A DNA stretch of 64,000 nucleotides from Acidobacteria bacterium RIFCSPLOWO2_12_FULL_66_21 (GTDB taxonomy: Bacteria > Acidobacteriota > Vicinamibacteria > Vicinamibacterales > 2-12-FULL-66-21), in assembly GCA_001767455.1 (NCBI GenBank), contig MELC01000068.1:1-64000 (forward strand). The letters are read 5' to 3'. Position numbers and translations under genes: made by a program. Below are positions 8,491 to 58,545 of this stretch, one piece after another; within the stretch, counting starts at the first letter, position 1, and each line of letters starts with the position of its first letter. The notes under the pieces were generated by a model. The model saw only the letters and a list, made by a program, of their open reading frames with translations, did not search any database and was not told where the DNA came from.

Positions 8491-9707
8491 CGCCGGCCGT
8501 CGGGACCGACGACAATCGAGGCTGGCTGGAGAAGGCGGCGTACTTCACCTTTCTCGCCTTCGCCGCCGTGCTGCAGTTGTCGATCGCCGTCTCGGAAGTG
8601 CTCCTCACGATCGCCGGCATCCTCTGGCTCGTGCTGGTGCTGCGGGAGCGGAAGCCGCTCCACGTGCCGCGCATGTTCTGGCCGCTTGCGGCGTACGCGG
8701 CGGCCACGCTCGTGGCCGCGGCACTCTCGATCGACCCGAACGTCAGCCTTCCCGACTGCAAGCAACTGCTGCTGTTCTTCATCGTGCCGATCGCGTACCG
8801 GCTGCTGCCGGGGAAACGCGCGCTGACGGCGGTCGATGTGATCATCACGTTCGGGGCCATCAGCGCGGTCGTGGGCGTGATGCAGTTCGGCATCCTGAAG
8901 TACGACGACCTCGGGCGCAGGCCCCAGGGGCTGCTCGGGATGTACATGACGTACTCGGGCCAGTTGATGCTGGTCGCGTGCCTGGCGGCGGCGCGCATCC
9001 TGTTCCGCAAGACCGATCGGGCGTGGTCGTTGCTCGTCATGCCGGCGCTCGTCGTGGCGCTGGCCGCGACCTTCAGCCGCAACGCGTGGGTCGGCGCGTG
9101 CGCGGGGATCGGCGTCCTGTTCCTCATCCGCGATTTCCGGCTCCTCGGGATCCTGCCGGTGTTCGCCGCGCTGTTCATCGCGTTCGCGCCCACGCGCCTC
9201 ACCGATCGGCTCTGGTCGACGTTCGAGATGCGCCAGCGTGCGAACGAAAGCGAAACGGTCGCGGCGAGCGTGCAATCGACCCGGGACCGCATCGCGATGA
9301 TCAAGTCGGGGCTGCACATCATCAGGGACCATCCCTGGACCGGCGTCGGCCCCGACATGGTCAAGGTGGTGTATGCCGGCTACCGCGACCCGTCGGCGGT
9401 CAAACAGCTCAACTCGCACCTCCACAACGTGCCGATTCAGATTGCGGCCGAGCGAGGCGTTCCCGCGCTGCTCGTCTGGCTCGTCTTCATGGGCATGCTG
9501 CTGCGCGACTTCTGGCGCGCGCGGGTGACCTCTCCGCTGTCCTCGCTCGCCACGGGCGCGCTGGCATCCGTGGTTGCGCTGGCCGCCGCCGGGATGTTCG
9601 AGTACAACTTCGGCGACTCCGAGGTGCTGATGCTGTTCCTCCTCGTCGTGACGCTGCCCTACGCCGGGGCCGCCGGCCGTGCGGCCGCCAGTGCTCCCCG
9701 TGCCTGA
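8487..9707 (+). CDS. O-antigen ligase / Wzy-type membrane protein
   Basis: 406 residues with about ten hydrophobic spans. It carries the Wzy_C/WaaL signature region: RDRIAMIKSGLHIIRDHPWTGVGP, then a periplasmic loop with SHLHNVPIQIAAERGVPALL. Such proteins polymerise or ligate glycan chains on the periplasmic face of the inner membrane. The ATG at 8487 overlaps the stop of the heptosyltransferase frame (ATGA) and its stop overlaps rfaE1, so the three form one envelope-polysaccharide transcript. Whether it is a ligase or a polymerase cannot be told from sequence. Confidence 0.85.
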   Translation: MTPAVGTDDNRGWLEKAAYFTFLAFAAVLQLSIAVSEVLLTIAGILWLVLVLRERKPLHVPRMFWPLAAYAAATLVAAALSIDPNVSLPDCKQLLLFFIVPIAYRLLPGKRALTAVDVIITFGAISAVVGVMQFGILKYDDLGRRPQGLLGMYMTYSGQLMLVACLAAARILFRKTDRAWSLLVMPALVVALAATFSRNAWVGACAGIGVLFLIRDFRLLGILPVFAALFIAFAPTRLTDRLWSTFEMRQRANESETVAASVQSTRDRIAMIKSGLHIIRDHPWTGVGPDMVKVVYAGYRDPSAVKQLNSHLHNVPIQIAAERGVPALLVWLVFMGMLLRDFWRARVTSPLSSLATGALASVVALAAAGMFEYNFGDSEVLMLFLLVVTLPYAGAAGRAAASAPRA

Positions 9708-10671
9708 CACTCCCAGGAGCGCCGGCGATGTGCTCGCGCGGCTGTCCGGGCGGACGGTCCTGATCGTCGGTGACGTGATGCTCGATCATTTCGTGATCGG
9801 GCGCGTCGAACGGATCTCCCCGGAGGCCCCCGTCCCCGTCGTCCAGTTCGACCACGAGGAGTACCGCCTCGGCGGCGCCGCGAACGTCGCGCACAACGTC
9901 GTGGCCCTCGGCGGGCGCGTGGAGATGGTGGGGCTGGTCGGCGACGACCAGGATGCTGGACGCCTGCGCGCCGATCTCGAGAAGCGGTCGATCGGCGCCG
10001 CCGGCCTCGTGACGGATCCCGGCCGGTGCACGACGCGCAAGCTGCGCGTCGTCACGACGCGCAACCAGCAGGTCGCGCGCATCGACTATGAGAGCGAGCG
10101 GGACGTGACGGGTGCCGTCGAATCGAGGGTTCTCGAGCGGCTCCTCGACCTCGCGGAACGCGCCGACGCGATTCTGGTGTCGGACTATCTGAAGGGCCTC
10201 GTCTCGCGACGCGTCGCCGAAACCGCCGTGTCCGCCGGACGGCGGCGCGGGATCGCCGTGCTCGTGGATCCGAAGGTCCCGCACATCGACTATTACGCCG
10301 GCGCGACCGTCATCACTCCGAACCACCACGAGGCGGAAGCGGTGACGCACCTGCGCGTCCGCACCGACGAGGAGGCGCGCGCGGCGGCCCGGCGCTTCCG
10401 CGAGCGCGCCGGCTGCGACAGCGTCCTCATCACTCGCGGCGAACAGGGCATGTCACTGCTCGGCCCCGACGGCCACGCGGAGCTCCCCGCCGAAGCGCGC
10501 GAAGTGTCGGACGTCACCGGCGCGGGCGACACCGTCATCGCGACGATGACCCTCGCCATCGCCGCAGGCGCCTCGCTCCTCGACGCCGCCCGCCTCGCCA
10601 ACCAGGCCGCCGGGATTGTCGTCGGGAAATTCGGGCCGGCTACGGTGACGGTGGAAGAGTTGAAGCAGTAG
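9700..10671 (+). CDS. rfaE1: D-glycero-beta-D-manno-heptose-7-phosphate kinase
   Basis: About 323 residues, a PfkB/ribokinase-fold kinase. Motifs include VLIVGDVMLDHFVIGRVERI at the N-terminus, LGGAANVAHNVVALGG (substrate), VITPNHHEAE, and DVTGAGDTVIATM with the catalytic Asp and anion hole. It makes heptose 1,7-bisphosphate for ADP-heptose. It has only the kinase half of HldE; no cytidylyltransferase domain follows. Three in-frame GTG codons (9679, 9691, 9700) could start it; all overlap the previous gene and none has a clear Shine-Dalgarno. Its TAG stop lies inside the repeat at 10665. It works with GmhA (encoded at 54773-55357). Confidence 0.92.
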   Translation: MPDTPRSAGDVLARLSGRTVLIVGDVMLDHFVIGRVERISPEAPVPVVQFDHEEYRLGGAANVAHNVVALGGRVEMVGLVGDDQDAGRLRADLEKRSIGAAGLVTDPGRCTTRKLRVVTTRNQQVARIDYESERDVTGAVESRVLERLLDLAERADAILVSDYLKGLVSRRVAETAVSAGRRRGIAVLVDPKVPHIDYYAGATVITPNHHEAEAVTHLRVRTDEEARAAARRFRERAGCDSVLITRGEQGMSLLGPDGHAELPAEAREVSDVTGAGDTVIATMTLAIAAGASLLDAARLANQAAGIVVGKFGPATVTVEELKQ

Positions 10672-10693
10672 GCAGTCTGCCTACTGCCTACTG
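10665..10693. repeat. heptad hairpin, GCAGTAG family, containing two stop codons
   Basis: GCAGTAGGCAG (10665-10675) and CTGCCTACTGC (10677-10687) are a perfect 11-bp inverted pair with a 1-nt centre, followed by one more CTACTG unit. The rfaE1 stop TAG is 10669-10671, and the stop TAG of the converging glycosyltransferase is 10688-10690, so both genes end inside the same element. The same word recurs at 58438-58545. Confidence 0.9.
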
Positions 10694-12388
10694 ACACCGA
10701 TTCGTTATCAACAACACCTCCGGCAGCGGCTTTCGCGCGAGGACGGCGTTCAGCTTCACGTTGACTGTCGGCCGCCGGGCGAGGACGCAGGTGCCCGCGG
10801 CCGCCGCGCCGAGGTCCGCGTAGTCGGCGGCGGACAGGACCGCGTAGACGGTGCGACTGCCCTCGATCGTCCGCAGGAACTCGTCGCGATCGAGCATCAC
10901 CTCGATGTGCCGGCCCAGGTAGAACACCATGCTCGGCAGCGCGACCCGGTAGTGCGCGACCACGTCATCCGGCGCCACGCGCTGCCGAATCACTTCGCTC
11001 AGTGCCGGAACGGGCTTGTATCGCTCGAAGCTGGGGAGCACGCTCAGCACGAACGTCCAGTTCACGACCACGAGCGACAGGACGACGGCGACGAGCGCCG
11101 CGCGCGGCTTGCGGAGCAGGACCAGGATCAGCGTCGACAGTCCGCCGGCCGCGCCCACCATGCCGACAAACGCGGCGCCGTCGAGCGCGTAGATCTTGCC
11201 GGCGGTCTCGAACACATACAGCACGCCGGCGCCGGCGATCGCCAGCACGAGCCCCATCGCGAGCGTTGTCCAGCCCAGCGCGCGCGCGGGGGCCGGGCCG
11301 CCGGCCCCGGCGATGAACAAGCCGCCGAGCGCAGCCACCGCGGGGACGACCGGGAAGACGTAGAGGTCCTGCTTCGCCGCCGACAGCGAAAAGAACACCA
11401 CGATGACCCCGACCCAGAGCCAGAGCAGCGTGCGCACGCGGAAGGCGCGGTGCTCCGTCGAGCGCTCCTCCGCCGGCGCGTCACGCGGCGCGAGGCGGGC
11501 CTGGCGGCGGTCGGCAAACCACGCGGCGGCCCCGCCGAACAGGCACAACGACCACGGGAACGGATCGCTGAGGAGCACCGGCAGGTAGTACCACGGCGGA
11601 CGGCTGACCTGAACGCCGACGCCGGCCGCGTAGCGGGCGACGTTCTCGTCAAGCAGAAAGGACCGGATATACATCCATCCGTACTGGTGGTAGAGCGCCG
11701 CGTACCACGGCACGACGATCGCGAGCACGATCACGATGCCCGCGGGCAGGAGCATCCCGCGCACGCGCTTCAGCTCGCCGTGCAGCAGCAGGTACGCACC
11801 GAACACCAGCCCCGGCAGCGCGAGCGCGACCGGGCCCTTCGTGAGCACTCCCAGCCCCGCGGCCCCGTACATGAGCGGCAGGTACAGGCGCCGCCGCTCG
11901 GGGTAGCGCTCCGCCAGCGCGAAGAACAGCAGCGTCAGCCCCATGAACATCGAGATGGAGATGTCGATGAAGATGCGGCGCGAGAACATGAGGAGGCGGG
12001 GCGCCACGGCGAGGCCGAGCGCCGCCCAGGTCGCGGCGCCGCGCGCGTGTGGCGGCTGCGCCGCGCGCGCGAGGAAGAACGCGGTCAGGATCAGCACGAC
12101 GGCGCCGATCGCGATCGGCAGCCGCTGCACGCCGACAGACACGCCGAACACCTTGTAGAACGCCGCGACCACCCAGTAGCTGAGGACCGGCTTGTTGAAC
12201 CGCGGCTCGTGGTTGAAGGTGGGGCTGATGTAGTCGCCGCGCTGCATCATTTCGCGCGGCGTCTCGACGTAATACGCCTCGTTCGCGTCCCAGATCGACG
12301 ACCCGTTCAGGTCGATGAAATAGGGGACGACGGCCGCCACGAGCAGCACGAATACGATCAACCGATAACGAGACACCGCCGACGGCAT
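10688..12388 (-). CDS. ArnT-like glycosyltransferase (GT83/PMT family)
   Basis: 566 residues. It has an N-terminal membrane anchor, then SSIWDANEAYYVETPREMM, which carries the acidic residues after the first span that are catalytic in ArnT/PMT enzymes. About eleven further hydrophobic spans and a hydrophilic C-terminal part follow. Family members move a sugar from a polyprenyl phosphate carrier to lipid A or protein on the outside of the inner membrane; the acceptor here is unknown. It converges on rfaE1 and shares its terminal hairpin. The start ATG directly abuts a TTCCAGT array on its upstream side and has no clear Shine-Dalgarno. Confidence 0.85.
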   Translation of the reverse strand: MPSAVSRYRLIVFVLLVAAVVPYFIDLNGSSIWDANEAYYVETPREMMQRGDYISPTFNHEPRFNKPVLSYWVVAAFYKVFGVSVGVQRLPIAIGAVVLILTAFFLARAAQPPHARGAATWAALGLAVAPRLLMFSRRIFIDISISMFMGLTLLFFALAERYPERRRLYLPLMYGAAGLGVLTKGPVALALPGLVFGAYLLLHGELKRVRGMLLPAGIVIVLAIVVPWYAALYHQYGWMYIRSFLLDENVARYAAGVGVQVSRPPWYYLPVLLSDPFPWSLCLFGGAAAWFADRRQARLAPRDAPAEERSTEHRAFRVRTLLWLWVGVIVVFFSLSAAKQDLYVFPVVPAVAALGGLFIAGAGGPAPARALGWTTLAMGLVLAIAGAGVLYVFETAGKIYALDGAAFVGMVGAAGGLSTLILVLLRKPRAALVAVVLSLVVVNWTFVLSVLPSFERYKPVPALSEVIRQRVAPDDVVAHYRVALPSMVFYLGRHIEVMLDRDEFLRTIEGSRTVYAVLSAADYADLGAAAAGTCVLARRPTVNVKLNAVLARKPLPEVLLITNRCQ

Positions 12389-12397
12389 GCCAGCAGT

Positions 12398-12499
12398 CAG
12401 TTTCCAGTCTCCAGTTTCCAGTTTCCAGCTCCCATGTTTTCAGCTTCGAATCGCCGTCCTCAGCGTGCACAGCTGGAAGCTGGCAACTGGAAGCTGTTT
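12398..12499. repeat. heptad inverted array, TTCCAGT/TTCCAGC family
   Basis: CAGTTTC CAGTCTC CAGTTTC CAGTTTC CAGCTCC on the left is matched by GGAAGCT GGCAACT GGAAGCT on the right, with about 35 nt between. It fills the gap between the start of the ArnT-like gene and the purH stop, and is the third of four TTCCAGC-family arrays in the first 16 kb. Confidence 0.82.
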
Positions 12500-14642: not shown

Positions 14643-14763
14643 GGTGCTCAAGGGTGCTGAGGGGTGCGGCACCCCTGAGCACCCTTCAGCACCCTTCAGC
14701 ACCTTTCAGCACCCTTCAGCACCTTTCAGCACCCTTCAGCACCCTTCAGCACCCTTCAGCACC
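14643..14763. repeat. tandem CACCCTTCAG decamer array with inverted head
   Basis: The first 49 nt are a near-perfect inverted pair (14643-14666 with 14668-14691, GTGCTCAAGGGTGCTGAGG in the left arm). Then about seven further CACCCTTCAG or CACCTTTCAG decamers run to the end. It separates the converging cold-shock gene and the gene at 14764, whose TGA stop overlaps the last CACCTCA unit. Confidence 0.9.
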
Positions 14764-15351
14764 TCAACCCGCCACCCCCTTCAGTCCCCGCACCGTAAAG
14801 TTTACTTTTCCGTCCTTCAGCGCCACGCGGAACGCCACCTCGGGGCTGCCCGCCTCACGCAGCTTGGTCACCTGATCCTTCACGAGCGCGGCGAAACGAT
14901 GGAACGGGACGACCTCGTCGCCGGTCTGACGCCTCGCGTCCATCAACGAGTCGTACAGCCCGTGGAGCTTGTCCATCTCCCGCATCGGATCGTGGAAGGC
15001 GGTGACGTGGAGGATGCGGGTCTCCACTTCCTCCGGCTTCTTCTTTCCGGCCTTCGGCGGCGGCGCGGAAAAGGGACCCGGCCGCCCTTCCTCACGCGCG
15101 CGCTGGCCGCGATCCCAGAGATCGATGAACGTCTGGAACCGGGCCTGGAGCGTCTGGAACCGGAACCGATCGACCGAGGTGTCGATGTTCCCGCGATCCC
15201 AGCGCTTGATGAGCGCCTCGACGCGGCCGCGCGTCTCCCATGGCGGGCGCGGCAGGCGCCCGGCGAAGAACCCGTTGTACTCGGCCTCGAGCCGCTTCAA
15301 TTCCGTCGCGAGCGTCGCGAGGTCGCGCTGGACGTCAGAGTCCTCGGCCAT
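14764..15351 (-). CDS. MXAN_5187 C-terminal domain-like protein
   Basis: 195 residues, soluble, with no signal peptide. It starts with a helical segment (VQRDLATLATELKRLEAEYN), then RGRVEALIKRWDRGNIDTSV and FRFQTLQARFQTFIDLWDR, and ends with a domain carrying EVAFRVALKDGKVNFTVRGL. The layout matches the domain found at the C-terminus of Myxococcus MXAN_5187 and as stand-alone proteins in acidobacteria. Function is unknown. It is followed on the same strand by the protein at 15423-15881 (upstream in transcription), with a repeat array between. Confidence 0.6.
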   Translation of the reverse strand: MAEDSDVQRDLATLATELKRLEAEYNGFFAGRLPRPPWETRGRVEALIKRWDRGNIDTSVDRFRFQTLQARFQTFIDLWDRGQRAREEGRPGPFSAPPPKAGKKKPEEVETRILHVTAFHDPMREMDKLHGLYDSLMDARRQTGDEVVPFHRFAALVKDQVTKLREAGSPEVAFRVALKDGKVNFTVRGLKGVAG

Positions 15352-15357
15352 GAGAGA

Positions 15358-15421
15358 AAGCTTCCAGTTCCCAGTTCCCAGCTCCCAGCTGGAAGCCGGA
15401 AGCTGGAGACTGGAAACTTGT
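15358..15421. repeat. heptad inverted array, TTCCAGT/CCAGCTC family
   Basis: CTTCCAG TTCCCAG TTCCCAG CTCCCAG meets CTGGAAG CCGGAAG CTGGAGA CTGGAAA directly, giving arms of about 28 nt with almost no loop. It fills the gap between two same-strand genes. Confidence 0.85.
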
Positions 15422-49603: not shown

Positions 49604-49632
49604 TGTAGGGGCCGTTCGCGAACGGCCCCTAC
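49604..49632. repeat. perfect palindrome GTAGGGGCCGTTCG...CGAACGGCCCCTAC
   Basis: Inverted repeat of 14 bp per arm, centre GC/CG. It spans the short gap between nuoK and nuoL and includes the nuoK stop codon (TAG, 49629-49631). Likely a hairpin in the mRNA of the operon. Confidence 0.85.
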
Positions 49633-54717: not shown

Positions 54718-54776
54718 GTAGCGCAGCCCTTCAGGGCTGCACGCGGCCGGTCGGCAGGCCTGACGGCCTGCGCTAC
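54718..54776. repeat. GTAGCGCAG-family inverted element between gmhA and nuoD
   Basis: GTAGCGCAGCCCTTCAGGGC at 54718-54737 starts one palindrome and GGCAGGCCTGACGGCCTGCG at 54753-54772 starts the other; the outer GTAGCGCAG / CTGCGCTAC arms also pair across the whole element. The gmhA stop TAG (54773-54775) is read from the CTAC end of the repeat. Confidence 0.85.
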
Positions 54777-58437: not shown

Positions 58438-58545
58438 GCAGTAGGCAGTATGCAGTATGTGGTAGGCAGTGAATCGAGCCGTCGAGCTGACTCTCGACAG
58501 CGTGACAGCGTGATCCGCTGCCTACTGCCTACTGCCTGCTATTTC
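58438..58545. repeat. heptad inverted array, GCAGTAG family
   Basis: Left GCAGTAG GCAGTAT GCAGTAT (58438 on) with GGTAGGCAGT; right CTGCCTA CTGCCTA CTGCCTG (58517-58540). The arms are separated by about 45 nt holding a small TCGAGCTGACTCTCGACAG hairpin. Same word as at 10665-10693, 48 kb away. Confidence 0.88.

Follow-up and report, generated by a model that had tools for sequence, protein, structure and literature searches.

We consider it likely that the hairpin in which two converging genes of a soil acidobacterium both end belongs, as a short and degenerate copy, to a dispersed palindromic repeat that is non-autonomous, and that such repeats are tolerated directly behind genes, where they would mostly touch stop codons and sometimes supply them. 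The hairpin lies in a window of 64,000 nucleotides, the whole stretch of DNA analysed, from a genome of 6.475 Mb in 91 contigs that was placed in the Vicinamibacterales (Acidobacteriota) from its relatives. In the mechanism we propose, these repeats, like the GTAG REPs, would be retained where they are harmless: mainly in the space just behind genes, and most of all where two genes converge. Both outer ends carry a TAG, each on its own strand, and two outcomes could follow from this. Most often, the element end would coincide with or abut a pre-existing stop, leaving the protein end unchanged; less often, the last codons would be displaced, and an in-frame TAG inside the repeat would act as a new stop behind a short repeat-coded tail. 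The hairpin and the two genes that meet in it are as follows.

10665..10693, no strand assigned: GCAGTAG/CTACTGC heptad hairpin with two perfect 11-bp inverted repeats; RNA fold z -4.6 and -4.0, one per strand
9679..10671, plus strand: rfaE1, heptose-7-phosphate kinase (TIGR02198, 368 bits; open reading frame); the true start may be at 9691
10688..12388, minus strand: PMT/ArnT-like glycosyltransferase (PF13231; orthologue ends)

The initial annotation had both converging stops inside one GCAGTAG/CTACTGC palindrome, and this is indeed their position: rfaE1 ends in ...VEELKQ followed by TAG at 10669-10671 (+), the glycosyltransferase ends in ...LLITNRCQ followed by TAG at 10690-10688 (-), and the hairpin sequence GCAGTAGGCAGTCTGCCTACTGCCTACTG contains both codons. 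Its two perfect inverted repeats are alternatives to each other (10665-10675/10677-10687 and 10666-10676/10683-10693). The glycosyltransferase end is unchanged relative to 3 of 4 orthologues with at least 50% identity; orthologues read ...ITNRCR, ITNRCK and ITNRCE and stop at that very residue, by TAA or TGA. The stop site therefore appears to be ancestral, and a native stop touched by the repeat is the most likely case for this gene. The same is probably true of rfaE1, whose orthologues end in VEELR, VEELRRE, VEELLG and VEELS; the tail is variable past VEEL and is compatible with either a native or a supplied stop. An Rfam RNA was rejected, the only Rfam match in the window being a tRNA.

For counts, we sampled 1.264 Mb of the same genome (about one fifth), with 1016 genes called by a home-made caller based on a dicodon model and with arrays detected by Tandem Repeats Finder (TRF). 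GCAGTAG arrays are flanked by a recurrent core, GCAGTGGATCACGCTGTCACGCTG. When this genome and 59 relatives were searched for it with 2 mismatches allowed, there were 58 matches in this genome and 1 in the 59 relatives, the latter in a relative of another family and with 2 mismatches. Judged by this core, the GCAGTAG heptads are the arms of a genome-specific dispersed palindrome. Its copies are laid out as RTAGC-NG-(GCAGNNG)n-core-spacer-mirrored arm-CNGCTAY, and the 11 complete ones measure 96-148 nt between their RTAGC and GCTAY ends; in our model, a full-size copy would thus comprise an RTAGC end, GCAGNNG heptads, the core GTGGATCACGCTGTCACGCTG and the mirror image down to GCTAY. The hairpin at 10665-10693 is without this core, and it is the GCAGTAG word, the one feature it has in common with the family, that makes it likely to be a short form. 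The window holds one full-size copy, and its other repeats that are discussed here are listed with it.

58438..58537, no strand assigned: full-size dispersed heptad palindrome with GCAGNNG arms, core GGATCACGCTGTCACGCTG and inverted arms (TRF; fold z -6.1; core match at C68:58498-58520)
12398..12496, no strand assigned: TTCCAGY heptad palindrome behind glycosyltransferase start / purH end (TRF; fold z -6.4)
14643..14763, no strand assigned: array of the 10-nt CACCCTTCAG (TRF; fold z -7.1)
15359..15415, no strand assigned: AGCTCCC/AGCTGGA heptad palindrome (TRF; fold z -4.4)
49605..49632, no strand assigned: GTAGGGGCCGTTCGCGAACGGCCCCTAC palindrome supplying the nuoK TAG (sequence; GTAG hairpin scan)
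54718..54776, no strand assigned: GTAGCGCAG REP pair in inverted orientation (hairpin scan; another locus of the genome has a RAYT-like gene flanked by this family)

The end tag of the heptad palindrome begins with a purine rather than the strict G of GTAG, and a terminal in-phase TAG is retained in only 25 of 63 arms, each a half-element. Where one of these 25 has a gene 3' end within 40 nt, its terminal TAG is the exact stop in 8 of 15 cases. The same TAG is carried by 10 copies with no 3' end nearby, so that the TAG belongs to the element end itself. We infer from its dispersal only that the element has been mobile. Among the 11 complete copies there was no 3-5 nt flank repeat, the target-site duplication looked for as the mark of a MITE of a DDE transposon. 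A 2-nt TA duplication might exist, but as a uniform rule a TA target-site duplication was rejected: the right-hand TA is followed by C or T in all 11, and the right flank is therefore unlike what would remain of a TAA or TAG split by the insertion. Heptad elements had no RAYT gene next to them, and the 3 Y1_Tnp loci are without the element core and GCAGNNG arms. Of separate note, GATGACGGATGAC, which served as a reversed control pattern, occurs 51 times in one relative (G002), indicating a separate heptad array family in this relative.

Two further stops in the window that had been ascribed to repeats do come from them. The nuoK (Oxidored_q2) TAG at 49631-49629 (-) is provided by GTAGGGGCC, with the protein reaching the end of PF00420 (95/95), and the gmhA (SIS domain) TAG at 54775-54773 (-) is supplied by the minus-strand GTAGCGCAG REP of the pair. 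For the gene at 14764-15351 (-), the claim that its TGA is taken from the array stood in part: the codon (14766-14764) abuts the array edge, but it lies just outside, the array ending at 14763, and it fits the array unit only if a 1-nt gap is allowed. The examples given in the initial annotation mix two types of element, since the gmhA and nuoK stop elements are GTAG-type REP palindromes, distinct in kind from the heptads. GTAGCGCAG occurs in many copies and, like the GTAG REPs, has a short hairpin behind a GTAG tag; it accounts for 25 of the 40 GTAG hairpins in the 1.264 Mb. Around a RAYT-like gene (C62:21200-23700), there are 5 direct and 7 inverted copies, the arrangement of REPs flanking the RAYT gene in published RAYT systems. 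The Y1 transposase encoded there (C62:22302-22577), used as a partial query, has REP_Tyr_transpos NF047646 as its best NCBIfam match, with 59.8 bits where the cut-off is 80. This locus has probably given rise to the GTAGCGCAG REPs of this genome, a family separate from the heptad palindrome. We also observed that the window starts (1-87) with a 36-nt tandem repeat of the GTAGCGCAG REP unit (TCTGTAGCGCAGCCCCAAAGCCCTGCGCCACCCCTT).

Repeats of period 7 are mostly noncoding (mean noncoding fraction 0.70 over 330 rows, versus 0.04-0.14 for periods 9 and 12), and as tandem, intergenic 7-nt units they are heptad repeat arrays of the STRR or LSSR kind. Many of the 330 array blocks in the sample begin no more than 10 nt behind a stop, and 152 gene 3' ends are array-adjacent, that is, have an array within 15 nt. 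As a null, we grafted the same arrays behind the ends of array-free genes and rescored the overlap. If arrays simply started behind stops and the repeat finder extended them into matching codons, overlaps would arise by pure chance, and the graft null accounts for part of the observations in this way: it reproduces the edge overlaps of 1-2 nt fully, and it puts the whole stop inside an array at 8% of ends (about 12 of 152) versus the 20 of 152 (13%) observed, so that chance extension makes up a large part of the raw count. Longer overlaps make pure chance highly improbable as the explanation: overlaps of at least 6 nt number 14 against 2.6 expected (graft null 1.7%), and those of at least 9 nt number 9 against about 1. 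A genome-wide excess of stops within array words, which the initial annotation had anticipated, is thus found in the sample. It stems from arrays whose word has TAG, which hold the stop in 13 of 26 cases (graft null 22%); arrays with stop-free words do so in 4 of 111 (graft null 3%). GTAG hairpins are not a source of stops beyond chance, the TAG being a stop in 10 of 40 (25%) versus 117 of 564 hairpin-free GTAGs (21%). TAG makes up 80% of stops inside arrays versus 26% in array-free genes, a partly circular comparison, and genes with a real 3' gap already use it in 32-34%.

For 24 genes that a repeat overlaps or abuts, the protein end was compared with the median end of orthologues (50-90% protein identity) belonging to other genera in the same family and order. 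In the outer-edge class (overlap below 7 nt), 10 of 14 proteins finish no more than one residue from this median; in the inside class (overlap of at least 7 nt), 2 of 10 do, while each of the remaining 8 departs from it by 1.5-9.5 residues in one direction or the other. This difference is weak (Fisher p=0.036), with a class boundary chosen post hoc from data already seen, and 4 of the 5 genes in the small control set were within one residue. Most outer-edge genes thus end where element-free orthologues end, so the stop site would be ancestral and there would be nothing to restore. GlmS, for example, ends in LAKSVTVE in 9 of 9 orthologues, and 6 of the 9 have the same TAG without an array, the very observation that the initial annotation had named as telling against stop restoration. 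Likewise, the LKTGKPLRN end of a FadJ-like protein is kept in 7 of 7 orthologues, mostly with TGA, and the VDPMTALRYE end of an ABC permease in 2 of 2. The inside-class ends are usually shifted, and there the repeat probably supplies both stop and tail. Repeat-coded tails include ...LAQLATRSS in a UbiD/peptidase-like gene (C30:245935; median +4 residues), ...RSASRGS in a RluD-like gene in C79 (+6.5 residues) and ...EGVSRQ (+8 residues, one orthologue), and the genes at C30:101633 and C22:110471 have their stop at least one unit inside the repeat and a protein end different from that of relatives. The order of events, read from the orthologues, would then be an ancestral stop touched by the repeat in one class and a stop contributed by the repeat in the other, and comparing protein ends makes the two separable. 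Of the candidate rules for which stop is used, random-phase insertion as the sole source was rejected, as was use of the first TAG only: in GCAGTAG arrays, the used TAG lies mostly at offset 0 and also 7 and 14 nt inside.

These results bear on why arrays sit behind genes at all. According to the initial annotation, elements land in gene ends, their two-strand TAG restores a stop, and this explains their position. The restoring of stops is seen in several genes, with the eight shifted ends and repeat-coded tails, the 13 of 26 TAG-word arrays holding a stop, and the gene at C22:110471, where the arm's third in-frame TAG serves as the stop after a TAG and a TAA have been passed out of frame. It is not general, as shown by the unchanged outer-edge ends and by GTAG hairpins, which give stops hardly more often than hairpin-free GTAGs (25% versus 21%), and it fails to explain the position, because 111 of 152 arrays adjacent to 3' ends (73%) have no stop word on the strand of the gene. 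Stop-bearing words do lie near 3' ends more often than stop-lacking ones (41 of 128 versus 111 of 532, p 0.01), but with the overlapping cases set aside the shares inferred from the counts are about 22% versus 20%, so that the difference is due to those cases. As an account of position, we find stop restoration unlikely. Inserts tolerated behind genes, or a function of the hairpins there, explain it better. Another reading is that the arrays grew by slippage from gene-end sequence, the stop codon being part of the seed word, for which the conserved GlmS codons GTC GAA TA(G), resembling the array word GTCGATA, could be an example. Microhomology at insertion would account equally for GlmS; the words GCAGTAG and GTCGATA occur at many unrelated sites and the GCAGNNG arms have a common core and fixed ends, which indicates that the array word comes from elsewhere, and we regard slippage as very unlikely.

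Hairpins could also have a function, ending transcripts from both directions or protecting the 3' ends of converging genes, with the overlap of stops as a by-product. Consistent with this, arrays make up 19.7% of convergent intergenic DNA, 10.8% of tandem and 5.6% of divergent; folds are strong; and in 4 of 8 syntenic rfaE1-glycosyltransferase gaps the fold z is below -2.5 despite differing words. The other 4 have no strong fold or no gap, however, the hairpins have no T-run, a palindromic partner within 120 nt exists for only 18% of arrays (control 4%), and tolerated insertion predicts the same pattern; a function has, in our estimate, a small chance of being the explanation. In relatives, the rfaE1-glycosyltransferase gap is occupied by unrelated heptads, REPs or palindromes that follow the genes' own, intact stops, and judging from these sequences the rfaE1 3' gap looks like a recurrent landing place. 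Across genera (L052-L080), unrelated heptads, decads, REPs or long palindromes were observed in the rfaE1 3' gap. We also considered that the RTAG-ended palindrome might insert preferentially at TAG (or TA-containing) stops, amber stops being a safe harbour that leaves protein ends unchanged. Such a preference seems to us quite improbable; if true, it would offer a simple model of safe-site insertion. We thus prefer the degenerate dispersed palindrome tolerated behind genes, in which selection would be the cause of the position.

Known repeats resemble this case in several respects. Cyanobacterial STRR are intergenic tandem heptanucleotide repeats of high copy number; they are like the present arrays in these respects and differ in their words. 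Repeat-provided stops have already been published for GTAG REPs, whose end-tag TAG frequently serves as the stop codon of the ORF alongside (Di Nocera et al. 2013 PMC3733652), and for TAACTGA heptads (MacGregor 2015 PMC4679880). REPs lie mostly between converging or co-directional genes, no more than 20 bp from 3' ends (PMC3733652), and the groups known for RAYTs include the Acidobacteria (PMC3733652; Nunvar et al. 2010 PMC2817692). The gmhA GTAGCGCAG belongs to this system. The heptad element is likewise palindromic, dispersed and behind genes, with the order convergent > tandem > divergent reported for REPs (PMC3733652), but it is longer, its arms are built of heptads, each of its two sides has an RTAGC end, and the search for an adjacent RAYT gene found none. 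TAACTGA heptads of marine Beggiatoaceae, Cyanobacteria and Bacteroidetes are intergenic, have stops in all frames and overlap the stop of 13 upstream ORFs, and inserts were argued to succeed at protein ends (PMC4679880). The arrays described here share with them an intergenic location and some overlaps with the stop of the upstream gene; that system has a single, non-palindromic word mostly just upstream of start codons, whereas here many words, partly in palindromic arms, lie mostly just behind stops. To the published idea of repeat-end stop codons, the present work adds a case from an acidobacterium, together with counts and a test against orthologues, and a warning for annotation that in such genomes a short C-terminal tail may come from a repeat. 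What is new relative to both systems is the genome-specific heptad palindrome with RTAG ends, the overlap null and the distinction of stops that are touched from stops that are supplied.
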